Assembly: GCA_018062885.1 (NCBI GenBank)
Contig: JAGORJ010000005.1
Location: 2,703 to 44,789 of the forward strand
DNA: 42,087 nucleotides
Direction: 5' to 3'
DNA from: Patescibacteria group bacterium
Lineage (GTDB): Bacteria; Patescibacteriota; Patescibacteriia; UBA1558; GWA2-36-10
In this document: positions 23,884 through 37,448 of the stretch, in pieces
Position numbering within the stretch: the first letter of the stretch is position 1
How the letters are laid out: every line of letters starts with the position of its first letter
Notes under the pieces: generated by a model
Database searches by the model: none
Told to the model about the DNA's origin: nothing
The model's input: the letters and a program-made list of their open reading frames with translations, nothing else
Position numbers and translations under genes: made by a program

Positions 23884-23996
23884 AAAATTACAATTTTTTT
23901 AATAACTCTTTGATATTAATACCACTTTTTTTGATTTTGATAAAATCTATAAATACGCATATTTTATATTAATTCTTTTAAGCTAATAATATTCAT

Positions 23997-24025
23997 AGTT
24001 TAACTTAAGGATAACTTAAAATCAA
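23997..24025 (-). promoter_or_regulatory. Probable promoter of rmuC
   Basis: Minus strand TTGATT (24020-24025), 17-base spacer, TAAACT (23997-24002). It lies in the 202-base AT-rich gap between the repeat-protein cluster and rmuC, giving a leader of about 105 bases. I see no convincing terminator in this gap. Confidence 0.5.
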
Positions 24026-24085
24026 CTTATTTATCTTATACTAAAAAAATTTAACAGCCTTTAGATAACATAGCGAGACTTTACC

Positions 24086-25180
24086 TTATAATCTTCCTTC
24101 ATATTTAAGTTTGTCAGCGCGTGCTTTTCTTACTCCAGCCATCATGCAATCACCATAAACACCCATAGCAACATAGCCCCCGATTGCTCCTTTGACTAAT
24201 AAGTCTTCTCTCATAGCCCAGGCTTTGTCTGAATCTAAACCAGCTAGAGCTAGCGCAACATAACCCTTGTCTGCTCCTTGAGCTAATAAGTCTTCTCTCA
24301 TAGCCCAGGCTTTATCTGAATCTAAACCAGCTAGAGCTAGCGCAACATAGCCCTTGTCTGCTCCTTGAGCTAATAAGTCTTCTCTCATAGCCCAGGCTTT
24401 ATCTGAATCTAAACCAGCTAGACCCATAGCAACCAAATCCTTGTCTGCTCCTTGAGCTAATAAGTCTTGGCGCATTTGCCAGGCTTTATCTGAATCTAAA
24501 CCAGCTAGAGCTAGCGCAACATAGCCCTTGTCTGCTCCTTGAGCTAATAAGTCTTCTCTCATAGCCCAGGCTTTGTCTGAATCTAAACCAGCTAGACCTA
24601 GCGCAACCCCGTCTTTGTCTTCTCCTTTAGCTAATAAGTCTTGGCGCATTTGCCAGGCTTTGTCTGAATCTAAACCAGCTAAGCCTCGAGCAACATGGCC
24701 CTTGTCTGCTCCTTGATCTAATAAATCTTGGCGCATTTGCCAGGCTTTGTCTGAATCTAAACCAGCTAGACCTTGAGCAACACAATTCTTGTTTGCTCTT
24801 TTGGCTAATAGGTCTCCTCTCATAGCCCAGGCTTTGTCTGAATCTAAACCAGCTAGAGCTTCAGCAACCAAATCCTTGCTTGCTCTTTGAGTTAATAAGT
24901 ATTGTAAATAATCTAAGGCTCTATCTTGAAACTCTGGCGAATTCATTAATTCTTGGTGAATATTATTGTATTCTATTTTGGCTTCATTAATTTCTGCTTG
25001 ATAAGTTTTTAAAGCTGTGAGTTCTTCTGCTGAGCCTTTTTCTACTTGACTTATTTTATCCATAGCTAAATCTAGCTTAGCTTTTATTTCTGGAGGATAA
25101 ACTATTCCTGCTTCTACTTTATTAGTTTCTCCTTCTGCTTTATTAGTTTGGTTAGTAAACTCTAATATTTTTTCTGACAT
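24086..25180 (-). CDS. Cassette protein, A-type: shared N-module + eight 29-residue repeats
   Basis: No known function. 364 residues: the shared N-terminal module (1 to about 65, starting MSEKILEFTNQTNKAEGETN), a linker with IHQELMNSPEFQDRA (about 74-88), eight 29-residue repeats (109-340) built on LAGLDSDKAWAMREDLLAQG, and the A-type tail GVYGDCMMAGVRKARADKLK. The repeats should form two helices each, an alpha-solenoid. No signal peptide or membrane helix, so cytoplasmic. Repeats 6-8 are almost identical at DNA level. It is the last cassette of the cluster, 17 bases after its B-type neighbour, and shares the DLAMDKI N-module version with the downstream block. Confidence 0.85.
   Translation of the reverse strand: MSEKILEFTNQTNKAEGETNKVEAGIVYPPEIKAKLDLAMDKISQVEKGSAEELTALKTYQAEINEAKIEYNNIHQELMNSPEFQDRALDYLQYLLTQRASKDLVAEALAGLDSDKAWAMRGDLLAKRANKNCVAQGLAGLDSDKAWQMRQDLLDQGADKGHVARGLAGLDSDKAWQMRQDLLAKGEDKDGVALGLAGLDSDKAWAMREDLLAQGADKGYVALALAGLDSDKAWQMRQDLLAQGADKDLVAMGLAGLDSDKAWAMREDLLAQGADKGYVALALAGLDSDKAWAMREDLLAQGADKGYVALALAGLDSDKAWAMREDLLVKGAIGGYVAMGVYGDCMMAGVRKARADKLKYEGRL
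24161..24856 (-). repeat. Eight 87-bp tandem repeats
   Basis: In-frame 29-codon units; for example, matching points at 24216 and 24303 are 87 bases apart. The scaffold half is nearly identical in every unit; the loop and second-helix half varies. Confidence 0.95.
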
Positions 25181-25196
25181 GTATTTGTGTATTATG

Positions 25197-26054
25197 CTAA
25201 TCTGTAGGGTATATTTTAAAACTGGGATGTTTCTTTCTTAGTTCAGCCCTTTTAGTTGAATTAAGATTATCAAGTCGTAAATTACCATTTACTGTTGTTG
25301 GTAGTGTTAAACCCTCAGCTGAAGTGAGCCCTCTAAGCCAAAGATAACCATTTACTGTTGTTGGTAGTGTGAGACCTTCAGCTGAAGTGAGGTTATCAAG
25401 CTGCAGATTACCATTTACTGTTGTTGGTAGTGTGAGACCTTCAGCTGAAGTGAGGTTATCAAGCTGCAGATTACCATTTACTGTTGTTGGTAGTGTGAGA
25501 CCTTCAGCTGAAGTGAGGTTATAAAAGTTAATTCTGTTTAAATTTGTTAAAGCTTCAATAGCTTGAGAAATATCTCCAGCTAAAATAGTGCTAGTGACTC
25601 TGATTTCTATTACATTATTATCTTCTATTTTAAGCCTTAAATCATCTAGACTAATATCTTCTGCTTGAAAATCTTTGTTGATGATTCTTTGTTTGGCAAA
25701 ACCTTTGTTTATTTGGATTACTAAATCTTCTAAGGCTTCTAATTCAAACCTATGTATTTGTTCTCCTTCAAAGTCTACTAGCTCCATCATTTTTTTATCA
25801 TGTGCTTCTTTCATTTTTTTATCATAGACTTCCTTTTCTTCTCTAGCTTTAGTTAGTAAGTTTATTTCTGCTTGATAAGTTTTTAAAGCTATGAGTTCTT
25901 CTGCTGAGCCTTTTTCTACTTGAGTTATTTTATCCATAGCTAAATCTAGCTTAGCTTTTATCTCTGGAGGATATACTATTCCTATTTCTGTGTTATTAGT
26001 TTCTCCTTCTGCTTTATTAGTTTGGTTAGTAAACTCTAATATTTTTTCTGACAT
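25197..26054 (-). CDS. Cassette protein, B-type: shared N-module + four 21-residue repeats
   Basis: 285 residues, no known function. The N-module (1 to about 65) matches the other cassettes, with NNTEIGIVYPPEI in place of NNTEQGIV. A charged linker follows, enlarged by a duplicated KKMKEAHDKKMM segment. The B-type middle region (about 95-178) has FEGEQIHRFELEALEDL and AEDISLDDLRLKIEDN. Four 21-residue leucine-rich-like units (180-263) are based on LTSAEGLTLPTTVNGNLQLD, and the tail is KKHPSFKIYPTD. The units here are almost perfectly uniform, indicating recent duplication. It lies 16 bases from both neighbours. Confidence 0.85.
   Translation of the reverse strand: MSEKILEFTNQTNKAEGETNNTEIGIVYPPEIKAKLDLAMDKITQVEKGSAEELIALKTYQAEINLLTKAREEKEVYDKKMKEAHDKKMMELVDFEGEQIHRFELEALEDLVIQINKGFAKQRIINKDFQAEDISLDDLRLKIEDNNVIEIRVTSTILAGDISQAIEALTNLNRINFYNLTSAEGLTLPTTVNGNLQLDNLTSAEGLTLPTTVNGNLQLDNLTSAEGLTLPTTVNGYLWLRGLTSAEGLTLPTTVNGNLRLDNLNSTKRAELRKKHPSFKIYPTD
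25266..25517 (-). repeat. Four 63-bp tandem repeats
   Basis: In-frame 21-codon units (matching points at 25284 and 25347 are 63 bases apart). They are nearly identical in DNA apart from the outward-facing residues (NLQL, YLWL, NLRL). Confidence 0.95.
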
Positions 26055-26070
26055 GTGTTTGTGTATTATG

Positions 26071-27018
26071 CTAATCTGCAGGCTCTATTTTAAAACTAGG
26101 ATGTTTTCTTCTTAATTCATTTCTTTCATCTGAGCTGAGGCTGCGAAGATCAAGATAGCCATTTAATGTTATTGGCAGTGTTAAACCTTCAGCTGATCTG
26201 AGATTGCTAAGATCGAGATTACCATTTAATGTGCTTGGTAGTATGAGGCCTTCAGCTAAGCTGAGGCTGCGAAGATCAAGAATACCATTTACTGTTGTTG
26301 GTAGTATGAGACCTTCGGCTGAGCTGAGGCTGTCAAGATAAAGATCACCATTTACTGTTGTTGGCAATGTAAGGCCCTCAGTTGAAATGAGGTTGGAAAG
26401 ATCAAGATAGCCATTTAATGTTATTGGCAGTGTTAAACCTTTGGCTGAAGTTAGATTTCCAAGACCAAGATTACCATTTAATGTTGTTGACAATGTAATG
26501 CCTTCGGCTGATTTGAGGCCGGAAAGACCAAGGTATTCTAAGTTTATTAAAGCTTCGAGTGGTTTAGAGATATCTCCAGACAAGACAGTGATGTTGGTGT
26601 ATATTTGTGTTACCTTATTATCTTCTATTGTAATCATTAAATCATCTAGACTAATATCTTTTGCTTTAAAGTCTTTGTTTATTATCCTTTGTTGAGCAAA
26701 GCCTTTGTTTATTTGAAGTATCAGATCTTCTAAAGCTTCTAGCTCAAACTTATGTATTTGTTCTCCTCTAAAGTCTATTAAAGCTTCCTTAGCTTCTTTT
26801 TCTTCTCTAGCTTTAGTTAGTGGGGTTATTTCTGCTTGGTAAGCTTTTAGAGCTGTGAGTTCTTCTGCTGAGCCTTTTTCTGTTTTAGTTATTTTATCCA
26901 TAGCTAAATCTAGTTTAGCTTTTATTTCTGGAGGATAAACTATTCCTTGTTCTGTATTATTAGTCTCTCCTTCTGCTTTATTAGTTTGGTTAGTAAACTC
27001 TAATATTTTTTCTGACAT
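26071..27018 (-). CDS. Cassette protein, B-type: shared N-module + six 21-residue repeats
   Basis: 315 residues, no known function. N-module with DLAMDKITKTEKGSAEELTA, a short linker (PLTKAREEKEAKEAL), the B-type middle domain (DFRGEQIHKFELEALEDLI to GDISKPLEALINL) and six 21-residue units (168-293). The tail is SSDERNELRRKHPSFKIEPAD. The first unit (AEGITLSTTLNG) lacks the conserved proline. Together with the gene at 34822 it is one of two B-type members with six rather than four repeats. Leader form CATAATACACAAACAC toward the next gene. Confidence 0.85.
   Translation of the reverse strand: MSEKILEFTNQTNKAEGETNNTEQGIVYPPEIKAKLDLAMDKITKTEKGSAEELTALKAYQAEITPLTKAREEKEAKEALIDFRGEQIHKFELEALEDLILQINKGFAQQRIINKDFKAKDISLDDLMITIEDNKVTQIYTNITVLSGDISKPLEALINLEYLGLSGLKSAEGITLSTTLNGNLGLGNLTSAKGLTLPITLNGYLDLSNLISTEGLTLPTTVNGDLYLDSLSSAEGLILPTTVNGILDLRSLSLAEGLILPSTLNGNLDLSNLRSAEGLTLPITLNGYLDLRSLSSDERNELRRKHPSFKIEPAD
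26140..26517 (-). repeat. Six 63-bp tandem repeats
   Basis: In-frame 21-codon units with the L-x-S-A-E-G-L-x-L-P-x-x-x-N-G-x-L-x-L pattern. They are more diverged from each other than those at 25266-25517. Confidence 0.92.
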
Positions 27019-27037
27019 GTGTTTTTGTGTATTTTTA

Positions 27038-27877
27038 TTATACTATATCTGCAGGCTCTATTCTAAAACTAGGATGCTTTTTTCTTAGTTCATTTCTTTC
27101 AGCTGAAGTGAGGCGGAAAAGATAAGGAGCACCATTTAATATTGTTGGTAATGTGAGGCCTTCAGCTGATTTGAGGCTTTGAAGCCAAAGATCACCATTT
27201 AATGTACTTGGTAAGCTTAAACCTTCAGCTGATTTGAGGCCACCAAGATCAAGACCACCATTTAATATTGTTGGCAGTATAAGACCTTTGGCTAATTTGA
27301 GACTACTGAGATAAAGATCACCATTTACTGTGCTTGGTAAACTTAAACCTTCGGCTGAGCTGAGGCTAGAAAGATCAAGCTTCTTTAAATTTATTAAAGC
27401 TTCGATAGGTCCAGAGATATCCCCAGATAAGATAGTGCTAGTAGTTTGGATTACTACTACCTTATTATCTTCTATTCTAATCTCTAAATCATCTAGCCTA
27501 ATATCTTCTGCTTTAAAGTCTTTGTTTATTATCCTTTGCTGGGCAAAGCCTTTATTTACTTGAACTATTAGATCTTCTAAAGCTTCTAGTTCAAACTTAT
27601 GTATTTGTTCTCCTTGAAAGTCTACTAGCTCCATCATTTCTTTATCATAGGCTTCTTTTTCTTCTCTAGCTTTAGTTAGTAAGTTTATTTCTGCTTGGTA
27701 AGCTTGTATAGCTATGAGTTCTTCTGCTGAGCCTTTTTCTACTTGAGTTATTTTATCCATAGCTAAATCTAGCTTAGCTTTTATCTCTGGAGGATATACT
27801 ATTCCTTGTTCTGTGTTATTAGTTTCTCCTTCTGCTTTATTAGTTTGGTTAGTAAACTCTAATATTTTTTCTGACAT
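27038..27877 (-). CDS. Cassette protein, B-type: shared N-module + four 21-residue repeats
   Basis: 279 residues, no known function. First cassette downstream of the vWA gene, 19 bases away. N-module with NNTEQGIVYPPEI, linker KAREEKEAYDKEMMELVDF, the B-type middle domain, and four units (172-255), the last altered (NGAPYLFRL). The tail is extended by two residues (KHPSFRIEPADIV) because the stop falls inside the junction motif GTATAATAAAAATACAC. Cytoplasmic by absence of signal or membrane segments. Confidence 0.85.
   Translation of the reverse strand: MSEKILEFTNQTNKAEGETNNTEQGIVYPPEIKAKLDLAMDKITQVEKGSAEELIAIQAYQAEINLLTKAREEKEAYDKEMMELVDFQGEQIHKFELEALEDLIVQVNKGFAQQRIINKDFKAEDIRLDDLEIRIEDNKVVVIQTTSTILSGDISGPIEALINLKKLDLSSLSSAEGLSLPSTVNGDLYLSSLKLAKGLILPTILNGGLDLGGLKSAEGLSLPSTLNGDLWLQSLKSAEGLTLPTILNGAPYLFRLTSAERNELRKKHPSFRIEPADIV
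27113..27364 (-). repeat. Four 63-bp tandem repeats
   Basis: In-frame 21-codon units. TTV/TIL/STL alternatives at the LPxxxNG position and variable residues at GxLxL. Confidence 0.92.
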
Positions 27878-27896
27878 GTGTTTTTGTGTATTTTTA

Positions 27897-29795
27897 TTAT
27901 ACTACAATCTTTTCTTTTAATTTCTTTTTAAGCTGTTCGGGAACTAATTTCACATTTTTAGCTTGAATACTATCTTTATAGAATCCTTTGACATGATCTG
28001 TTTCTGGACCAATACCAAAACCAATCAAATCAACTTCTGGATTTGTTTGTATTTTATCGGTCACTTCTGATAATTCACCTTCAGAAGATTTTGCACTATT
28101 ATAACGATTGCCCCCTGGTGCCGGCAAACCATCTGACATGACCATAAATAAATTTGTCTTAGCTAAATTTGCTAAAACTATAGTTTCATAAATTTTATTA
28201 ACACAAAAAGCATCACTATTATTCCTGGCACCAGGACCAGAAGTGATACCTATCATCCGCATCATTTTATCACGAACTTTATTATCAAATTCTTCTTCAA
28301 AAGCTTTAAACTCATAAACATCATCTTGAAAACCATGAATTGAAAAAGGTATACCAACATTATTCAAAACTTCCGCCACCATAGCCAAGCCTTTGAAAGT
28401 TTCTAGTATCTTAGCATTTTGCATTGAACCAGATAAATCAACCAGCATCGTCACGCGAAAATCATTTTTTTCATGACTAATAGTTTTTAAAAATAATTCA
28501 TCATAATTACCAGTTGCCTCAAAGAGCATAGGGCCACCACCAGACATATTTATGTCTGCTCCAGATGGAGCTGGTTTTTTAGTTGGCTGTCTCTTGGACA
28601 TAAATTCTGCCAAAAAAAACTGGGTCAGATTATCAATTTCTGAGCGTAGTTCTAAAACAGTTTTTTCATACTCTGATCTTGTAGCGTCTAATTTTGCCTC
28701 CGCTTCAGCCATCGCTTCTTCCATCTGACGCTTAATACTTTCATTATTCTCAGATTTCTTATCTTCTGAGCTCCTTTTTCCTGGCTCACCAAACTTACCT
28801 CCAATAACATCATTGGCACCTGCCTCAAGGCCGTCTAATTTTTTCTTGGCATCTGCTTTAGCCTTGTCTTCTAGGTTTTTGCGCTCCTCAGGATCCATGT
28901 CTTCAAGTTTTTTCCTTATTTTATCTTTTAATTTTTCTTTTACTGCATCTGGTAACTGATCAAATGGTATAGGCATACCAGAATCATCACCCTCTCCTTC
29001 ACCAAGTTCAAAGTCTCCATCTTCCAACATTTTTTTTAATAATTCATCCCATTGAGCATTTTCGTATGAAGCATCAACTAATTTTTTATACTCAGGCCAA
29101 ATAGCACCCCTAGTCAATTTGTACATCAGCCGTGCTTTTGCGACTATCTCAGCTGGTGATGGGGTCATAGATGGAACAGTATTATAGCAAGCTTGAGCTA
29201 TCTTATCTGTTTTTTCTAAAGCTGCTCTAACATCATCAGGCAAATCATCTGAAAATTCCCCTGTATGCCAACGACGAATCACTTCTAAACCAAACCGGAT
29301 ATGCTTTGGCGTGTACCCAACTTGTTGTTCAGCTAAATCTGTAATTTTTTGTTCATCATTATATTCATCATCATACACTTCATTTAGCCATTCCTTTGGG
29401 CCGGCGTATTTAGCTGACATCCAATTATTTACCCGCGGATCTTCCACGGCATTTAATAAAAACTTAAAACCACTTTCATTCCACTCTTCTTTGGGAATAA
29501 AATCAACCTTACTAATAATTTCATGCGCAGCCTCGTGAGATATTACACCCTTGCAAAATTCGGGTGATTTGTTTGCTACATCATTAGGACAAACTTCAAT
29601 AGTGTTACTACCAAATATATAGCGCCAACCTGGCTTTTTACCATAACGAACCTTGATATCACTACCCGAGGATGCTAAAAGCTCAGCTATCGCTGTAATC
29701 TCATTAAATTTTTTTCCAGCCTCTATATTTTCAATCGGCAATTCTTCCTCATTATTGACAAGTGGTATATTATTAACTGATTCAAATGTTCTCAT
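27897..29795 (-). CDS. vWA-domain protein with N-terminal HExxH metallopeptidase-like region
   Basis: Start 29795 (MRTFESVNNIPLVNN) gives 632 residues and a 22-base gap after the MoxR gene; an upstream ATG at 29864 would overlap MoxR. The N-terminal part has GVISHEAAHEII (HExxH at 87-91) and NAVEDPRVNNW (Glu118), the layout of the putative metallopeptidase domain often joined to vWA-like domains. A charged, low-complexity middle (about 260-400) is rich in K, E and D. The C-terminal vWA has the MIDAS DLSGSM (453-458), a later NNSDAF and VMSDGLPAPGG. vWA partners of MoxR ATPases act in assembly or remodelling of target complexes. It is framed by cassette genes and ends in the cassette junction motif. 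The peptidase role is inferred from motifs. Confidence 0.82.
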   Translation of the reverse strand: MRTFESVNNIPLVNNEEELPIENIEAGKKFNEITAIAELLASSGSDIKVRYGKKPGWRYIFGSNTIEVCPNDVANKSPEFCKGVISHEAAHEIISKVDFIPKEEWNESGFKFLLNAVEDPRVNNWMSAKYAGPKEWLNEVYDDEYNDEQKITDLAEQQVGYTPKHIRFGLEVIRRWHTGEFSDDLPDDVRAALEKTDKIAQACYNTVPSMTPSPAEIVAKARLMYKLTRGAIWPEYKKLVDASYENAQWDELLKKMLEDGDFELGEGEGDDSGMPIPFDQLPDAVKEKLKDKIRKKLEDMDPEERKNLEDKAKADAKKKLDGLEAGANDVIGGKFGEPGKRSSEDKKSENNESIKRQMEEAMAEAEAKLDATRSEYEKTVLELRSEIDNLTQFFLAEFMSKRQPTKKPAPSGADINMSGGGPMLFEATGNYDELFLKTISHEKNDFRVTMLVDLSGSMQNAKILETFKGLAMVAEVLNNVGIPFSIHGFQDDVYEFKAFEEEFDNKVRDKMMRMIGITSGPGARNNSDAFCVNKIYETIVLANLAKTNLFMVMSDGLPAPGGNRYNSAKSSEGELSEVTDKIQTNPEVDLIGFGIGPETDHVKGFYKDSIQAKNVKLVPEQLKKKLKEKIVV

Positions 29796-29817
29796 AATAT
29801 TTTTGATAATAAAAAAT

Positions 29818-31212
29818 TTATTGCATATTTTGACGTAATATCTCTTTATGATCTTCTGGCACATCTGGATTACTCAAAAGATCTGCATATAAATTCAATA
29901 CTTCTTCTCTGCTACCCTCTCTAGCTTGAGAAACTACTTTCTCCACTGGCTCATCTAGCTGAACAATATCTTCAGCTAAAACTTTCAATCTTTGTCTATC
30001 CTCAGGAGACTTTAATTTATCATAAAATATGGCCTGAAGCGCATCTTGAACTGTTTGTTTAAAATTACCTGGTTGACGAAATGTTAAAATAAATTGTTTA
30101 AATCTGACAGTATCACGTTGATCATAAGTAATATTTTGCTGCTCACCAGATTTTGTATTAATATCTTTTCCGACCATAGATTTTACCTTGCAGAAAAAAG
30201 TGGCATATTTAGTCATAAAACCTCTGACCCAAACATCATCATAAACATCACTTAACTTTGTAAATTGAGTCACATTTTCTTTTTCTTTGACTTCTACTAC
30301 AGTTGACTTTGTAGACTCTTCTAATCCTTCACTTATCAATAATCTATTTAGTTGCTCTGTTTCATTCATTGACCTCACTGATACAAAACGCCAACGACTA
30401 ACATAGTCTTCAGATAATTGAACGCGTCCTTTGATTCTTCCACCGGGTGGATTCATGGTGCCAAAAACTCTAGATTTAGGATCTCTCTTAATCTTTCTGT
30501 TTCCATTCTCACTTAAAATCATCTCCCCGCCTTTTTCTAATAGAGCGTTTAAGCGCACTAAAATTTGTGGCTCAGCAGTATTCACCTCATCAAGAATAAG
30601 CCAAGCGCCTTCCTCCTGCGCTCGAACAATGTCTGAGTCTTGCCATGTCCAATCTTCATCGCTAATTTCTATATTTTCATTTTCAGCAATTTTTTTTATA
30701 TCATCTTCTGAAAATCCCTCAACTAAAAAATCTCTCACTGCCTCTTGTCCCTCTGCGGGCTCTAATTCTAACTTTTGTGTATATTTAGCTACTATTTGTT
30801 TTGAATCTTCAGAAAGTGATGATCTATTTTTGATCTTATCATATAACTGTTGTTCTAAGCCTTTGTTTTTTGGTATCCATTTGCCAACCAGAGCGCCAAT
30901 GTCACTCTGACCATTCAAAGACACACGATACATTGGTCGATTTAATAAGGCGGCTAAATATTCGATAGTTATGTTTTTGCCTACCGCTGGATCACCTTCA
31001 AGTAATAAAGGATCGTTTGTGACTACTGCTTCTAAAATTTTTTTCATTAGATCTTGAGAATATTCATCTTCAACAAAATCCCTTAAAGTCTCTTTATTAA
31101 GTGAAGGAATGCGCTCGTGCTTGCGAGTATCTGTTTCAATTTCAAAGCCCATTAATTGAACGGTCTTTTCTTCAACGTTTTCTATGTTTTTAAAAGTTTC
31201 TTCAAATTTCAT
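29818..31212 (-). CDS. MoxR-type AAA+ ATPase with unusual Walker A
   Basis: 464 residues of the MoxR/AAA_5 (dynein-related) kind, proteins that work as ATP-driven chaperones with vWA partners. Walker A is GDPAVGKN (73-80): the usual final Ser/Thr is Asn. The pore-loop region (VSLNGQSDIGALVGKW) is followed by an acidic insertion of roughly 65 residues (about 120-195). Walker B LILDEVN (205-211), sensor 1 FGTMNPPG and an arginine-finger region SEDYVSRWRF follow. Nucleotide binding is likely; efficient hydrolysis is uncertain because of Asn80. The gene is 11 bases from the unknown gene upstream and 22 bases from the vWA gene, so the three form one unit. Confidence 0.88.
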   Translation of the reverse strand: MKFEETFKNIENVEEKTVQLMGFEIETDTRKHERIPSLNKETLRDFVEDEYSQDLMKKILEAVVTNDPLLLEGDPAVGKNITIEYLAALLNRPMYRVSLNGQSDIGALVGKWIPKNKGLEQQLYDKIKNRSSLSEDSKQIVAKYTQKLELEPAEGQEAVRDFLVEGFSEDDIKKIAENENIEISDEDWTWQDSDIVRAQEEGAWLILDEVNTAEPQILVRLNALLEKGGEMILSENGNRKIKRDPKSRVFGTMNPPGGRIKGRVQLSEDYVSRWRFVSVRSMNETEQLNRLLISEGLEESTKSTVVEVKEKENVTQFTKLSDVYDDVWVRGFMTKYATFFCKVKSMVGKDINTKSGEQQNITYDQRDTVRFKQFILTFRQPGNFKQTVQDALQAIFYDKLKSPEDRQRLKVLAEDIVQLDEPVEKVVSQAREGSREEVLNLYADLLSNPDVPEDHKEILRQNMQ

Positions 31213-31223
31213 ATTTCTTTATA

Positions 31224-31643
31224 TTAAACGTTTAAAATTGGATAAAAAATATCGCCTAGCTCATGGTTAGAATGATTGTATTCATCATCTGTCATACAAA
31301 CAAAAAGTTTGGCTTTGGAATCTGGATCTTTTTCTTGTTGATCAAATTTTAACTTAGCATACTTTGATAAGTAATTGATAAACATAAAAAAATCGCTATT
31401 TAGATCTTTATCTACAATAACTTTTACTACCCTACCTTGTTCTAGTGCCTCAAATATTGACTGGATATTTGGACTATCAAACTCTAAGGAAACATTAGTT
31501 GTGGAGATTTGGTTTGAATCGGGAAAATATTTATTAATTTCCGCTAAATCACTCTCATTTTTGTAGAGGACTAGGCCTATATTAAAAGAGCCGTGGTCTA
31601 GTTCTGTTTTACCTAAAAGTTGAATAAATTGTTCTTTTTTCAT
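31224..31643 (-). CDS. Unknown 139-residue protein of the MoxR-vWA unit
   Basis: No family recognised. Begins MKKEQFIQLLGKTELDHGSF and ends ELGDIFYPILNV. Mixed alpha/beta pattern, acidic, no cysteine pair, signal or membrane helix. Only 11 bases separate it from the MoxR gene, so it probably works with it. It lacks the shared N-module and the repeats of the cassette proteins. It lies at the border where the upstream cassette array stops in a truncated stub. The coding call is good; the function is open. Confidence 0.7.
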   Translation of the reverse strand: MKKEQFIQLLGKTELDHGSFNIGLVLYKNESDLAEINKYFPDSNQISTTNVSLEFDSPNIQSIFEALEQGRVVKVIVDKDLNSDFFMFINYLSKYAKLKFDQQEKDPDSKAKLFVCMTDDEYNHSNHELGDIFYPILNV

Positions 31644-31688
31644 ACAAATGAGATTAAATTATTAATATTTATATTTTTTATATATTCT

Positions 31689-31724
31689 TTATTTATTACT
31701 AAACTCTAATATTTTTTCTGACAT
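31689..31724 (-). pseudogene. Truncated cassette stub (MSEKILEFSNK then stop)
   Basis: The frame from ATG 31724 reads MSEKILEFSNK and stops at TAA (31689-31691). The first eight codons and the leader AAAAATCT before the ATG match those of the full cassette beginning at 33690. It directly follows the A-type gene at 31733, exactly like the full junction at 33690/33699. It is best read as the remnant of a cassette lost by deletion or recombination; a functional leader peptide is less likely. Confidence 0.7.
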
Positions 31725-31732
31725 AGATTTTT

Positions 31733-32842
31733 TTATAATCTTCCTTCATTTTTAAGTTTATCGGTGCGTGCTTTTCTTACTCCAGTCATTACACAGTCTC
31801 CATAAACACCTAGAGCAACCCGGGCTTTATCTACTCCTTGGGCTAATAAGTCTTCCCTCATAGCCCAAGCTTTATCTGAATCCAAGCCAGCTAGACCTTG
31901 AGAAACACTGCTATTGTCTGCTCCTTGAGCTAATAACTTGTCTCTCATAGCCCAAGCTTTATCTGAATCCAAACCAGCTAGACCCATAGCAACACCGCCA
32001 TTGTCTGCTCCTTGAGCTAATAACTTGTCTCTCATAGCCCAAGCTTTATCTGAATCCAAACCAGCTAGACCCATAGCAACAAAACGCTTATCTACTCCTT
32101 GGGCTAATAAGTCTTCCCTCATAGCCCAAGCTTTATCTGAATCCAAGCCAGCTAGACCTTCAGCAACCGAGTCTTGAGGCACTCCCTGAGCTAATAGCTC
32201 TTCCCTCATAGCCCAAGCTTTATCTGAATCCAAGCCAGTTAGACCCATAACAAAAGCGTCCTTAGCTACTCCTCCTTGATCTACTAGCTCTTCTCTCATG
32301 GCCCAAGCTTTATCTGAATCCAAGCCAGCTAGACCTTGGGCAACAAAGCTCTTATACGCTCCTTGATCTAATAACTTGTCTCTCATGGCCCAAGCTTTAT
32401 CTGAATCCAAGCCAGCTAGACCTTGGGCAACCGAGTTTTTATCTGTTCCTTGAGCTAACAACTCTTCTCTCATGGCCCAAGCTTTATCTGAATCCAAGCC
32501 AGCTAGACCTTGGGCAACAAAGCTCTTATACGCTCCTTGATCTAATAAGTCTTGTATATAAGCTATAGCTCTATCTTGAAACTCTGGTGAATTCATTAAT
32601 TCTTGGTGAATAAGCTCCATTGAGTTATTATATTCAACTTTAGCTTTGACTATTTCTGCTTGGTAAGCTTGTAGAGCTATGAGTTCTTCTGCTGAGCCTT
32701 TTTCTGTTTTAGTTATTTTATCCATAGCTAAATCTAGTTTAGCTTTTATCTCTGGAGGATAAACTATTCCTTGTTCTGTGTTATTAGTTTCTCCTTCTGC
32801 TTTATTATCTTTAGCTGTAAACTCTAATATTTTTTCTGACAT
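31733..32842 (-). CDS. Cassette protein, A-type: shared N-module + eight 29-residue repeats
   Basis: 369 residues, no known function. N-module in the AKDNKAEG version (shared with the B-type neighbour at 32869), linker ELIHQELMNSPEFQDRA, a partial repeat DQGAYKSFVAQG, eight repeats (113-345) and the tail GVYGDCVMTGVRKARTDKLK. Repeat 3 has one extra residue (ELVDQGGVAKDAF). Its repeats use a codon set of their own (GCCCAAGC, GAATCCAAGCC on the plus strand), unlike those of the gene at 24086. It lies 26 bases after its upstream neighbour. Confidence 0.85.
   Translation of the reverse strand: MSEKILEFTAKDNKAEGETNNTEQGIVYPPEIKAKLDLAMDKITKTEKGSAEELIALQAYQAEIVKAKVEYNNSMELIHQELMNSPEFQDRAIAYIQDLLDQGAYKSFVAQGLAGLDSDKAWAMREELLAQGTDKNSVAQGLAGLDSDKAWAMRDKLLDQGAYKSFVAQGLAGLDSDKAWAMREELVDQGGVAKDAFVMGLTGLDSDKAWAMREELLAQGVPQDSVAEGLAGLDSDKAWAMREDLLAQGVDKRFVAMGLAGLDSDKAWAMRDKLLAQGADNGGVAMGLAGLDSDKAWAMRDKLLAQGADNSSVSQGLAGLDSDKAWAMREDLLAQGVDKARVALGVYGDCVMTGVRKARTDKLKNEGRL
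31808..32506 (-). repeat. Eight 29/30-codon tandem repeats
   Basis: 87-bp units, one with a 3-base insertion. The LAGLDSDKAWAMR scaffold is invariant except LTGLD once; the xKxxVA segment varies in nearly every unit. Confidence 0.95.
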
Positions 32843-32868
32843 GTGTTTGTGTGTTATTGACTATTATA

Positions 32869-33690
32869 CTAATCTAAAGGTTGTATTTTAAAACTAGGAT
32901 GCTTTTTTCTCAGCTCATTTCTTTGATCTGAGCTGAGGCTGTTAAGATAAAGATCACCATTTAATGTTGTGGGTAGTATAAGACCTTTGGCTGATCTGAG
33001 GTTGGAAAGACTAAGGCCACCATTTACTGTTGTTGGTAGTATAAGACCTTCAGCTGAGCTGAGTCTAGAAAGACCAAGATCACCATTTACTGTGCTTGGT
33101 AGTGTGAGACCTTTGGCTGATTTGAGACTACTGAGATAAAGATCACCATTTACTGTGCTTGGTAGTGTGAGACCTTTGGCTGAGCTGAGGCTATAAAGAC
33201 TAATTGTTCTTAAATTTATTAAAGCTTCAATGGGCCCAGAGATATCCCCAACTAAGATAGTGCTAGTAAATTTGACTCCTACTACCTTATTATCTTCTAT
33301 TGTAATCTCTAAATCATCTAGACTAATATCCTCTGCTTCAAAGTCTTTATTGATAATTCTTTGTTGGGCAAAACCTTTGTTTATTTGAACTATTAGATCT
33401 TTTAAAGCTTCTAGCTCAAACTTATGTATTTGTTCTCCTTGAAAGTCTACCAAAGCTTCTTTAGCTTCTTTTTCTTCTCTAGCTTTGGTTAATGGGGTTA
33501 TTTCTTCTTGGTAAGCTTGTAGAGCTATGAGTTCTTCTGCTGAGCCTTTTTCTGTTTTAGTTATTTTATCCATAGCTAAATCTAGCTTAGCTTTTATTTC
33601 TGGAGGATAAACTATTCCTTGTTCTGTGTTATTAGTTTCTCCTTCTGCTTTATTATCTTTAGCTGTAAACTCTAATATTTTTTCTGACAT
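32869..33690 (-). CDS. Cassette protein, B-type: shared N-module + four 21-residue repeats
   Basis: 273 residues, no known function. AKDNKAEG N-module, linker PLTKAREEKEAKEAL, B-type middle (FQGEQIHKFELEALKDLI, EDISLDDLEITIEDN, GDISGPIEALINL), four units (168-251) and tail SSDQRNELRKKHPSFKIQPLD. It starts 8 bases after the stop of the A-type gene at 33699, with leader AAAAATCT. Its N-module is almost identical to that of the A-type gene immediately downstream although the C-termini are unrelated. Confidence 0.85.
   Translation of the reverse strand: MSEKILEFTAKDNKAEGETNNTEQGIVYPPEIKAKLDLAMDKITKTEKGSAEELIALQAYQEEITPLTKAREEKEAKEALVDFQGEQIHKFELEALKDLIVQINKGFAQQRIINKDFEAEDISLDDLEITIEDNKVVGVKFTSTILVGDISGPIEALINLRTISLYSLSSAKGLTLPSTVNGDLYLSSLKSAKGLTLPSTVNGDLGLSRLSSAEGLILPTTVNGGLSLSNLRSAKGLILPTTLNGDLYLNSLSSDQRNELRKKHPSFKIQPLD
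32938..33189 (-). repeat. Four 63-bp tandem repeats
   Basis: In-frame 21-codon units with SAKGL/SAEGL and LPSTVNG/LPTTVNG alternation. Confidence 0.92.
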
Positions 33691-33698
33691 AGATTTTT

Positions 33699-34805
33699 TT
33701 ATAATCTTCCTTCATTTTTAAGTTTATCGGTGCGTGCTTTTCTTACTCCAGTCATCAGGTAATCACCATAAACACCAATAGCAACCACGCCCTTGTTTGC
33801 TCCTTGAGCTAATAAGTCTTCTCTCATAACCCAGGCTTTTTCAGAATCTAAACCAGCTAGCCCTATAGCAACATGGTCCCTGTCTACTCCTTGAGCTAAT
33901 AAGTCTTCTCTCATAACCCAGGCTTTGTCAGAATCTAAACCAGCTAGACCTAGAGCAACCACGCCCCTGTCTGCTCCTTGAGCTAATAAGTTTTCTCTCA
34001 TATCCCAGGCTTTGTCAGAATCTAAACCAGCTAGACCCATAGCAACATAGCCCTTGTTTGCTCCTTGAGCTAATAAGTTTTCTCTCATATCCCAGGCTTT
34101 ATCTGAGTCCAAGCCAACTAAACCTTGAGCAACAAAGTCTTTAGACGCTCCCTGGGCTAATAACTTTTCTCTCATGGCCCAAGCTTTATCTGAGTCCAAG
34201 CCAACTAAACCTTGAGCAACATATTCCCCGTGTGCCACTTGGGCTAATAAGTCTTCTCTCATATCCCAGGCTTTGTCAGAATCTAAACCAGCTAGACCTA
34301 GGACAACATGGCCCTTGTATACTCCTTTGGCTAATAAGTCTTCTCTCATAGCCCAGGCTTTGTCAGAATCTAAACCAGCTAGACCCATAGCAACTAGGTC
34401 TTTACCTGCTCCTTGAGCTAACAACTCTTCTCTCATGGCCCAAGCTTTATCTGAATCCAAGCCAGCTAGACCTTGAGCAACAAAGCTCTTATACGCTCCT
34501 TGATCTAATAAGTCTTGTATATAAGCTATAGCTCTATCTTGAAACTCTGGTGAATTCATTAATTCTTGGTGAATAAGCTCCATTGAGTTATTATATTCAG
34601 CTTTAGCTTTGACTATTTCTTCTTGGTAAGCTTGTAGAGCTATAAGTTCTTCTTTAGAGCCTTTTTCTGCTTTACTTAAGCTAGCTAGACTTTGGTCTAG
34701 CTTAGCTTTTATTTCTGGAGGATAAACTATTCCTTGTTCTGTGTTATTAGTTTCTCCTTCTGCTTTATTAGTTTGGTTAGTAAACTCTAATATTTTTTCT
34801 GACAT
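33699..34805 (-). CDS. Cassette protein, A-type with mosaic repeats
   Basis: 368 residues, no known function. The N-module combines NQTNKAEG (as in the downstream block) with DQSLASLSKAEKGS (as in the two upstream cassettes). Linker ELIHQELMNSPEFQDRA; eight 29-residue repeats (113-344); tail GVYGDYLMTGVRKARTDKLK. The repeats fall into at least two synonymous-codon groups: the first and fourth resemble those of the gene at 31733, and most others have a third pattern (TTTGTCAGAATC on the plus strand). One unit reads LDSEKAW. This is the clearest mosaic in the cluster. Confidence 0.85.
   Translation of the reverse strand: MSEKILEFTNQTNKAEGETNNTEQGIVYPPEIKAKLDQSLASLSKAEKGSKEELIALQAYQEEIVKAKAEYNNSMELIHQELMNSPEFQDRAIAYIQDLLDQGAYKSFVAQGLAGLDSDKAWAMREELLAQGAGKDLVAMGLAGLDSDKAWAMREDLLAKGVYKGHVVLGLAGLDSDKAWDMREDLLAQVAHGEYVAQGLVGLDSDKAWAMREKLLAQGASKDFVAQGLVGLDSDKAWDMRENLLAQGANKGYVAMGLAGLDSDKAWDMRENLLAQGADRGVVALGLAGLDSDKAWVMREDLLAQGVDRDHVAIGLAGLDSEKAWVMREDLLAQGANKGVVAIGVYGDYLMTGVRKARTDKLKNEGRL
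33774..34469 (-). repeat. Eight 87-bp tandem repeats, mosaic
   Basis: In-frame 29-codon units. The residue after KAW alternates A, D and V; LAGL alternates with LVGL. Synonymous signatures differ by unit. Confidence 0.95.
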
Positions 34806-34821
34806 AGATTTTTGTTATTGA

Positions 34822-35781
34822 CTAATCTTCAGGGTATATTTTAAAACTAGGATGTTTCTTTCTTAGTTCGTTCCTTTCATCTGAGCTGAGACTATGAAGA
34901 TTAAGGCCACCCTTTAATATGCCTGGTAACACTAAGCCTTCAGCTGAAGTGAGACTTCTAAGATCAAGATCACCATTTAATGTTGCTGGTAGTGTCAAGC
35001 CTTCAGCTGATTTAAGATTACTCAAATAAAGACCACCATTTAATGTTGTGGGCAGCACTAAGCCTTCAGCTGAGCTGAGACTGTAAAGATTAAGATAGCC
35101 ATTTACTGTTGTGGGCAACACTAAGCCTTCAGCTGAGCTGAGACCAGCAAGATCAAGACTACCATTTACTGTTGTGGGCAACACTAAGCCTTCAGCTGAG
35201 CTGAGACTATTAATATCAAGACTACCATTTACTGTTGTGGGCAGCACTAAGCCTTCAGCTGAGCTGAGGCTATGAAGATGTATCCATTTTAAATTTATTA
35301 AAGCTTCAATGGGCTTAGAAATATCTCCAGCTAAAATAGTGCTAATAATTTGGATTGTGACTACCTTATTATCTTCTATTTTCAGCCTTAGATCATTTAG
35401 ACTAGCATCTTCTGCTCGAAAATATTTGTTTATTGTTCTTTGTTTGGCAAAGCCTTTGTTTACTTGAACTACTAGATCTTTTAAAGCTTCTAGTTCAAAT
35501 TGATGTATTTGTTCTCCTCTAAAATCTACTAGCTCCATCATTTTTTTATCATGGGCTTCTTTTTCTTCTCTAGCTTTGGTTAATGGGGTTATTTCTGCTT
35601 GGTAAGCTTGTAGAGCTATGAGTTCTTCTGCTGAGCCTTTTTCTGCTTTACTTAAGCTAGCTAGACTTTGGTCTAGTTTAGCTTTTATCTCTGGAGGATA
35701 AACTATTCCTTGTTCTGCTTTATTAGTTTCTCCTTCTGCTTTATTATCTGGAGTGGTAAACTCTAATATTTTTTCTGACAT
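34822..35781 (-). CDS. Cassette protein, B-type: shared N-module + six 21-residue repeats
   Basis: 319 residues, no known function. TPDNKAEGETNKAEQGIV N-module with DQSLASLSKAEKGS, linker KAREEKEAHDKKMMELVDF, B-type middle with some divergence (GFAKQRTINKYFRAED), six units (172-297), tail SSDERNELRKKHPSFKIYPED. The first four units share SAEGLVLPTTVNG or TTLNG and look recently amplified; the last two (LPATLNG, LPGILKG) are older. It starts 23 bases after the gene at 35805 with the TATAATAAAAATACACAAAACAC leader. Confidence 0.85.
   Translation of the reverse strand: MSEKILEFTTPDNKAEGETNKAEQGIVYPPEIKAKLDQSLASLSKAEKGSAEELIALQAYQAEITPLTKAREEKEAHDKKMMELVDFRGEQIHQFELEALKDLVVQVNKGFAKQRTINKYFRAEDASLNDLRLKIEDNKVVTIQIISTILAGDISKPIEALINLKWIHLHSLSSAEGLVLPTTVNGSLDINSLSSAEGLVLPTTVNGSLDLAGLSSAEGLVLPTTVNGYLNLYSLSSAEGLVLPTTLNGGLYLSNLKSAEGLTLPATLNGDLDLRSLTSAEGLVLPGILKGGLNLHSLSSDERNELRKKHPSFKIYPED
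34891..35268 (-). repeat. Six 63-bp tandem repeats
   Basis: In-frame 21-codon units; the first three in the coding direction are almost identical in DNA. Confidence 0.93.
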
Positions 35782-35804
35782 GTGTTTTGTGTATTTTTAT
35801 TATA

Positions 35805-36626
35805 CTAACCTAAAGGCAATATTTTAAAACTAGGATGTTTTTTTCTTAATGCATTTCTTTCAGCTGAGCTGAGGCTAGGAATATAAAGACTACCATTTAA
35901 TGTACTTGGTAGTATGAGACCTTCAGCTGATTTAAGATTGCTAAGATCAAGACCACCATTTAATATTGTTGGTGGCGTAAGACCTTCAGCTGATTTAAGA
36001 TTGCTAAGATCAAGATAACCATTTAATATTGTTGGTAGCGTAAGACCTTCAGCTGAGCTTAGGTTATGAAGATCAAGATTACCATTTAATGTTGTTGGTA
36101 GTATGAGACCTTCGGCTGAGCTGAGGCTGCGAAGACCAAGGTATTTTAAGCTTATCAGAGCTTCAATAGCTTTAGAGATATCTCCAGATAAGACAGTGGT
36201 ATTAGACCTTATTTGTATTACCTTATTATCTTCTATTATAATCTTTAAATCATCTAAACTAATATTTTCTGCTTTAAAATCTTTGTTTATTATCCTTTGT
36301 TGGGCAAAGCCTTTGTTTATTTGCAGTATTAGATCTTCTAAAGCTTCTAGTTCAAACTTATGTATTTGTTCTCCTTTAAAGTCTACTAAAGCTTCCTTAG
36401 CTTCTTTTTCTTCTCTAGCTTTAGTTAGTAAGTTTATTTCTTCTTGGTAAGCTTGTAGAGCTATGAGTTCTTCTGCTGAGCCTTTTTCTGCTTTACTTAA
36501 ACTAGCTAGACTTTGGTCTAGTTTAGCTTTTATCTCTGGAGGATAAACTATTCCTTGTTCTGCTTTATTAGTTTCTCCTTCTGCTTTATTATCTGGAGTG
36601 GTAAACTCTAATATTTTTTCTGACAT
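35805..36626 (-). CDS. Cassette protein, B-type: first cassette, four 21-residue repeats
   Basis: 273 residues, no known function. TPDNKAEG N-module with DQSLASLSKAEKGS, linker LLTKAREEKEAKEAL, B-type middle (FKGEQIHKFELEALEDLI, GDISKAIEALISL), four units (168-251; one has LTPPTILNG), tail SSAERNALRKKHPSFKILPLG. It begins 6 bases after the tatD stop, so the whole cluster is probably read through from the lipoprotein-cvpA-tatD operon, at least in part. No signal peptide. Confidence 0.85.
   Translation of the reverse strand: MSEKILEFTTPDNKAEGETNKAEQGIVYPPEIKAKLDQSLASLSKAEKGSAEELIALQAYQEEINLLTKAREEKEAKEALVDFKGEQIHKFELEALEDLILQINKGFAQQRIINKDFKAENISLDDLKIIIEDNKVIQIRSNTTVLSGDISKAIEALISLKYLGLRSLSSAEGLILPTTLNGNLDLHNLSSAEGLTLPTILNGYLDLSNLKSAEGLTPPTILNGGLDLSNLKSAEGLILPSTLNGSLYIPSLSSAERNALRKKHPSFKILPLG
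35874..36125 (-). repeat. Four 63-bp tandem repeats
   Basis: In-frame 21-codon units of the SAEGL-LP-NG type. Confidence 0.92.
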
Positions 36627-36632
36627 AGATTT

Positions 36633-37448
36633 TTATCTTATGTTAAAAAATTTAACAGCGTTTTGAAAAGTTTGTTCTATCACTTCTTCTTTAGTTAAAT
36701 TCAAAATCTCAGCAATTTTTTCCGCTACATGTTGTGTATGAATAGGCTCATTTCTTTTTCCTCTATGTGGCACTGGTGTCAAATAAGGTGCATCAGTTTC
36801 AATCAAAATTTTATCTAGAGGCATTATTTTGACAATGCTTTCTAAAACTCCAGTTTTATCAAAAGTAATAATACCAGTAAAGCCCAAATAAAAACCAGCG
36901 GCAATAAAATCTTTAGCGTCTTGTAAACTGCCACCAAAACAATGAATAACTGCTCGCTTTACATTTTCACTTTTTAAAACACTTAAAATATCTTGATAAC
37001 AACTAAATTTATTTTCTTTGTCATTACGGCCATGAATGACTAAGGCTAAATTATTGTTTTGAGCAAGCTTGATATGCTGAATCAAAACTTCTTTTTGTTT
37101 AGCTTTGTAAGTAGCAAAATCAACGCCGTATTTTTCTTCTACTTCATTAAAATGATAGTAGTCCAAACCAGTTTCCCCCATAGCGACTACTTCATTTTTA
37201 TTGTTATCAATTAATTCTTGATATTTACTAATATCAAAGTCTTCATCAAAAACATGAATGGGGTGTAAACCAAGACTGGCATAAAAATTTTTGTTGTTTT
37301 TAGCAAGCTCCACGGCTTTGAGACTAGTAGCATAAGCTGCGCCAATATTGACTAAAGTCATGGGTAAATTTTGACAGCGCAAAATCACCTCGTCACGATC
37401 TTCGTCATAAGCTTGAAAATTTAAATGAGTATGTGAATCAAACAACAT
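36633..37448 (-). CDS. tatD: TatD-family metal-dependent deoxyribonuclease
   Basis: TatD proteins are TIM-barrel metal-dependent nucleases of the amidohydrolase type, implicated in DNA repair. The 271-residue protein has FDSHTHLNF (H6, H8), VAMGETGLDYYHF, VIHGRND, AVIHCFGGS and LIETDAPYLTPVPHRGKRNEP-type motifs (LIETDAPYLTPVPHRGK), covering all metal ligands. Its ATG overlaps the end of cvpA by one base. The repeat-protein cluster starts directly after its stop. Confidence 0.95.
   Translation of the reverse strand: MLFDSHTHLNFQAYDEDRDEVILRCQNLPMTLVNIGAAYATSLKAVELAKNNKNFYASLGLHPIHVFDEDFDISKYQELIDNNKNEVVAMGETGLDYYHFNEVEEKYGVDFATYKAKQKEVLIQHIKLAQNNNLALVIHGRNDKENKFSCYQDILSVLKSENVKRAVIHCFGGSLQDAKDFIAAGFYLGFTGIITFDKTGVLESIVKIMPLDKILIETDAPYLTPVPHRGKRNEPIHTQHVAEKIAEILNLTKEEVIEQTFQNAVKFFNIR

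Follow-up and report, generated by a model that had tools for sequence, protein, structure and literature searches.

What does a MoxR-vWA gene pair do in the midst of nine paralogous repeat-protein genes? The question is raised by a locus in a tiny patescibacterium of the host-dependent type, at positions 24086-36626 of the window (the whole 42,087-nucleotide stretch of DNA analyzed here), where 12 ORFs, all on the minus strand, comprise three core genes, termed S, A and V, and nine cassette genes, c1 through c9. In the reading that we prefer, to which we assign a probability of about one half, the locus is an island that carries the patescibacterial V-S-A MoxR-vWA recognition machine with its hypervariable module, the target of a diversity-generating retroelement (DGR) in relatives, replaced by nine gene-encoded repeat proteins.

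Organization of the locus

The genes are transcribed in the order c9-c8-c7-c6-c5-S-A-V-c4-c3-c2-c1. A preliminary description had reported nine paralogues with a common N-terminal module around a three-gene core, and indeed all twelve ORFs were found, the N-module occurs nine times, and transcription order bears out its placement of the core, with five cassettes before it and four after it. The gaps of 8-26 bases that it gave hold within the array and also within the core (11-22 bases), but not between S and c5, the sole outlier at 89 bases. Given gaps of 8-26 bases, the cassettes are probably co-transcribed with the core. The most likely start of V, judged from sequence, is 29795 (MRTFESV...) and not the mechanical ORF start at 29864, which overlaps A. 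The sample is one genome of 731 kb, 94.8% complete, in a draft assembly of 57 contigs; the repeat array may be mis-assembled, against which argue the diverged copies, the unique flanks, and reading frames that are open and intact in all nine cassettes.

An acquired island between rmuC and tatD

Genomes of the same family share the gene order atp genes, rmuC, tatD, cvpA, metG, rsmI. In at least 12 of them (G001-G005, G007, G008, G011, G012, G014-G016) the site is empty, with an rmuC-tatD spacing of approximately 4 to 900 bases; in the window this spacing is 12.7 kb and holds the island of approximately 12.6 kb. The same space in family genomes houses small genes of several kinds, for example a toxin-antitoxin pair. 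A 38 bp imperfect repeat flanks the island: its right copy (36632..36669) is the 3' end of tatD, and its left copy (24030..24068), located by local alignment to 36632-36669, is an imperfect, attachment-site-like version of that end. The alignment scores 46 versus a maximum of 34 in 5000 mononucleotide shuffles, and no other repeat match in the window exceeds 29. Past the left repeat, positions 23885-24030 contain a decayed stretch resembling the post-tatD sequence of G001, G015 and G016, with a G016 match that barely exceeds its shuffles. This stretch is what persists in the window of a toxin-antitoxin-type region that these three genomes have in intact form between tatD and rmuC. A flanking copy of the tatD 3' end together with a decayed stretch is what insertion at the 3' end of a gene leaves; array and core make up an acquired, integrated island. 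No integrase was found within the island, and its GC content is close to that of its neighbors.

A phage origin was considered and rejected, as V matches a single phage CobT-like protein over only 33% of its length at 25% identity. Phage records contained no match to a HEAT-type cassette, and nothing was returned when viral contigs were scanned with cassettes of this type, the N-module, V or A. Two viral contigs with a full core (L112, L113) branch beside cellular Patescibacteria.

Core proteins

Protein A (29818..31212, minus strand) matches AAA_5 (60 bits, 2.8e-16), midasin, CobS and NorQ/CbbQ, not AAA_3, and these matches place it in the MoxR clade of AAA+ ATPases. Its P-loop, GDPAVGKN, ends in GKN rather than GK[ST]; since the final residue is N and not S/T, ATP hydrolysis is not assured. 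Several relatives that lack a DGR module carry SK variants of the P-loop, such as GKTSTSKT in L079. Going by these motifs, the P-loop variants of A and its relatives may amount to altered ATP handling. A ends before the variable module seen in its relatives and so has no C-terminal variable module.

Protein V (27897..29795, minus strand) combines an HExxH zincin-like domain (HEAAH, with NAVEDPR downstream) and a CobT-type vWA domain with the MIDAS motif DLSGS and the motif VMSDG. It matches Pfam CobT_C at 6.8e-12 and has CobT and midasin as relatives in the PDB.

The small protein S (31224..31643, minus strand) has 139 residues and belongs to a 27-member family that occupies the same place in relatives; by sequence, no convincing family match was obtained for it. 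Its predicted fold has a mean pLDDT of 80, and among the Foldseek matches listed the top ones are all AAA+ proteins (RuvB, ClpA/ClpB, dynein and the MoxR-clade NorQ) with E-values of 2e-3 to 1e-2; the comparison with NorQ (9qhd) gives a TM score of 0.64 by query length and a probability of 1.00. In neither S nor its relatives can a P-loop be seen, and this together with the AAA+-like predicted fold leads us to read S as a degenerate AAA+ domain, predicted to lack a P-loop. Homology of S to A by sequence was rejected (hhalign probability 0.2%), the link to AAA+ coming from the predicted fold.

A common N-module confined to the array

Residues 1-64 of the nine cassettes form a near-identical N-module with a mean column identity of 88%, and 43/65 columns of the alignment are invariant. 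The 731-kb genome contains nine copies, every one in the array. The module is absent from S, A and V and from the 31 other V-clade loci, and a search of 380 further genomes of the class and 322 of the phylum yielded 0 convincing matches, in agreement with the earlier proposal that it is tied to the core. No array like this one occurs in any other genome searched, so that the joint function of cassettes and core is read from a single locus. In the model of c8, the cassette chosen for folding, residues 1-28 are disordered and are followed by a low-confidence helical hairpin and then by the solenoid.

Four candidate matches to the N-module were rejected. Hairpins or N-termini of the accessory proteins of DGR targets reached an hhalign probability of 0.1%. 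In L056, the 94-residue stretch immediately following S scored 50, better than most shuffles of that sequence, and was dropped when several unrelated helical ORFs in the loci scored equally or higher. Weak matches in L104, which sits within an unrelated protein, and in L208 (E 0.009) were likewise set aside.

Two types of repeat module with few variable positions

Past residue 64 the cassettes carry two unrelated types of C-module. Modules with 29-residue helical repeats are found in c1 (24086..25180), c5 (31733..32842) and c7 (33699..34805), and modules with 21-residue LRR-like repeats in c2 (25197..26054), c3 (26071..27018), c4 (27038..27877), c6 (32869..33690), c8 (34822..35781) and c9 (35805..36626), all on the minus strand. 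Judged from the repeat pattern only, the former appear to be HEAT-like helical solenoids; a search with this type against PDB sequences gave no match. Matches of the helical repeats to DUF4113 and similar Pfam families were rejected as repeat artefacts, as no single stretch passes by itself. The repeat part of c8 is mostly modeled at pLDDT >85 with short strands, and LRR proteins are among the Foldseek matches listed for it, all weak at E-values of at least 0.05; the Pfam LRR models gave no match on the cassettes. With no signal peptide evident by eye, the cassettes would be cytoplasmic.

In the LRR-like repeat, positions 16/18/20 alternate with conserved Leu 17 and 19 beside a predicted strand. 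Compared between repeats, these positions have a dN/dS of 1.23 versus 0.17 for the scaffold, and positions 22-26 and 29 of the HEAT-like repeat have 0.77 versus 0.08; as the variable positions were picked after inspection of the data, repeats within a gene are non-independent and synonymous differences are high, these values describe a contrast and do not constitute a test of selection. Both cassette types probably expose a few highly variable positions on a conserved scaffold. The preliminary description had spoken of variable repeat modules, of which the focus of variation on few repeat positions stands, while the number of C-module types is two and not nine.

N-module identity is the same for cassettes of like and unlike C-type (0.892 vs 0.895, permutation p 0.59) and drops the farther apart two cassettes lie in the array (r -0.79, p 0.0002). 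As identity follows position and not C-type, local duplication or conversion has acted on the N-module, and the C-modules assort independently of it. The expandable, modular set of paralogues around a MoxR-vWA core that had been proposed is supported.

The drop in identity with array distance also suggests tandem duplication, and the array could be a selfish or neutral expansion around a DGR-type core that lost its DGR, with cassettes functionally unlinked to it. Similar repeats do occur in other genomes of the class (20 and 11 of 381), mostly without a detected core, and the array is known from one genome only. We consider this unlikely, however, given the position of the core in mid-array with short gaps, an N-module that is confined to this locus, nine intact reading frames and a scaffold that is strongly constrained (dN/dS 0.08-0.17). 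Among the class genomes with such repeats, two loci (L158, L169) have the same LRR-like repeats adjoining large proteins that share a conserved motif of the GTGWCTAG type. In genome G186, a helical-repeat protein (L176/L206, contig C54) is 56% identical to a window C-module, begins with a helical N-terminus of its own and contains a single in-frame TGA; that genome also has V beside a DGR-type target, on a different contig.

The cassettes might instead be effectors and not sensors, released by the machine to block components of an invader or of the cell (dominant-negative, Kaur et al.). Published MoxR-vWA cores are paired with variable effectors, some of which are inactive or scaffold domains (PMC7159879). 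We regard this as quite improbable here, as no enzymatic or toxin-like domain was recognized in the cassettes scanned and repeat solenoids are typical binders.

Relatives of the core carry a DGR module

DGR targets are abundant in Patescibacteria. The three core genes make up a conserved set, usually in the order V-S-A, that is sporadic in this group. V was found in 14/381 class genomes, and a wider scan returned 47 loci; the scan of genome collections used two peptide patterns, by which relatives will be missed. In a tree built by a quick method, the window's V and 31 others, mostly patescibacterial, form a clade of 32 members with an SH-aLRT support of 99. Its closest relative is the V of L056 (43% identity, sister support 99), beside which lie a reverse transcriptase (RT) and a pair of template and variable repeats (TR/VR); as the branch of the window's V is long, its exact place in the tree is unsure. 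The genome that contains L056, JAHIUG01, is patescibacterial and has two V-S cores (L056, L059) on different contigs, with an RT directly upstream of the core closest to the window's V.

In most relatives the ATPase is extended at its C-terminus by approximately 270 residues, and this extension often recurs as a stand-alone neighbor of 285-339 aa. The 3' ends of these ATPase and stand-alone genes are variable repeats, forming TR/VR pairs of 98-127 bases. Adenine-biased pairs are present in 15/31 loci, with 82-100% of mismatches at a template A; this share does not exceed 42% in 15 control loci from outside Patescibacteria and is 50% for the best pair in the window. An RT is found in 17/31 loci, many of them on short contigs, one RT (L076) being a fragment; all candidate RTs scanned (8/8) match Pfam RVT_1. 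The variable C-module of the relatives gave no match to PDB sequences. The 731-kb genome of the window has no RVT_1 match, and a DGR acting on the array itself was rejected, there being neither adenine bias nor RT.

The core pair had been expected to occur together with cassettes; instead, relatives commonly have V-S-A without cassettes and usually with a DGR module. As this module fills the place of the cassettes, what is conserved is the machine, and its variable partner can be exchanged. In L077 the ATPase likewise lacks the variable module, the 22-kb locus has no RT, and a protein with a helical N-terminus and WD40 repeats (PF00400, 41 bits, cut-off 27) is encoded on the strand opposite to V, at a distance of 21 bases. 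This single case of divergent orientation is only suggestive of a parallel in which the core has taken another partner.

Two further groups of loci were observed. L062 (QZIJ01000065, labeled Anaerolineaceae), from a bin labeled Chloroflexota, has a core and a DGR that group in the tree with a Paceibacter one, and its placement reflects misbinning or recent transfer. In L071, L073 and L087-L100 (Planctomycetota, Myxococcota, Pseudomonadota) the HExxH-vWA protein adjoins an AAA protein of approximately 900-1000 aa, and neither S nor RT was detected in the loci fetched.

If the machine is a chaperone, the cassettes could be its clients, assembled or folded by MoxR-vWA into a cytoplasmic scaffold or complex with no recognition of foreign targets. 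The characterized pairs CobST, NorQD and RavA-ViaA are assembly or maturation chaperones (PMC7159879), the PDB relatives of the core are CobS/CobT, NorQ/NorD and midasin, and probable co-transcription would suit a machine and its clients. We nonetheless find this doubtful: variation focused on few repeat positions and nine diverged copies fit recognition better than housekeeping, and recognition is also favored by the island character of the locus and by the fact that in relatives a DGR hypermutates the equivalent partner.

A proposed fixed repertoire for a recognition machine

Since the same machine has a self-mutating recognition domain in relatives, the window looks like a case in which the changeable part was swapped for a set of fixed recognizers. 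In the favored recognition reading, the common N-module, a disordered acidic tail with a helical hairpin, would be held by the core, perhaps through the MIDAS site of the vWA domain. In MoxR-vWA pairs, a peptide of the client is caught at the vWA site and remodeled at the expense of ATP (PMC7159879), and by analogy the acidic tail could plausibly be a peptide of this kind. The two kinds of solenoid, LRR-like and HEAT-like, would bind different cytoplasmic targets. Upon binding, the cassette-V complex would be remodeled by the A ring, possibly partnered by S as a non-hydrolyzing AAA+ protein, and the changed state of A-S-V could trigger an output that may consist of proteolysis by the HExxH domain. 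The likeliest purpose of array and core would be to act in conflicts, such as those with phages. The preliminary interpretation, taken as a whole, is partly supported.

We tentatively propose, further, that one immune-type machine of Patescibacteria, a MoxR-vWA-pseudoAAA core, uses two interchangeable strategies, either a DGR-hypermutated module or, in the window, a gene-encoded repertoire of several genes for LRR-like and helical solenoids exchanging modules by recombination, a bacterial counterpart of LRR-based repertoires. The V-S-A set links a group of patescibacterial DGRs to a defined three-protein machine. With the same machine and a fixed array, the window is a natural swap experiment, which predicts that cassettes and hypervariable module serve one and the same function. 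What these DGRs are for thereby becomes testable through the V-S-A core and a cassette.

Comparison with known systems

CobS/CobT and NorQ/NorD are among the nearest characterized relatives of A and V; unlike cobaltochelatase CobST, however, A and V score far below the equivalog cut-offs (CobS 34.8 of 558.6 bits, CobT 21.5 of 759 bits). Precedent for MoxR-vWA conflict systems, to which the preliminary description had appealed, is found in the MoxR-vWA-centric ternary systems of Kaur et al. 2020 (PMC7159879), for which a role in conflict is proposed and not proven. Shared with these are a MoxR-clade AAA+ protein, a MIDAS vWA protein, a third conserved component, and variable partners with a small helical adaptor-like domain. 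Compared by description, their third component is a VMAP, iSTAND, FtsH or beta-propeller protein, whereas S has no family match; the window's V differs in having an HExxH domain. Their effector-associated domain is common to the partners and a core protein, whereas the N-module is absent from S, A and V.

CPR-clade DGR targets typically have no recognizable membrane or other conserved domain in one survey (PMC8144416), and as summarized in PMC10907252 (citing Paul et al. 2017), CPR targets are often an AAA ATPase with a variable C-type-lectin-like domain. The ATPase homologues in our loci (e.g. L058-L090) similarly carry a DGR-type variable C-module beside V and S, and from the published description they would be these same targets; the available text of PMC10907252 makes no mention of V and S partners in these bacteria. 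Like the DGR relatives, the window has a homologous ATPase together with a vWA protein and a small partner; it differs in having no RT, no adenine-biased repeats and no variable module on the ATPase, with nine repeat proteins instead. The clade 5F DGRs of CPR and DPANN are judged unlinked to conflict systems in PMC10907252. The same paper describes DGR-diversified MoxR ternary systems of multicellular bacteria, proposed to be antigen sensors, which as described there resemble the window in joining a MoxR/vWA machine to a hypervariable recognition partner; in the window, by contrast, diversity is stored as an array and is not made by an RT.
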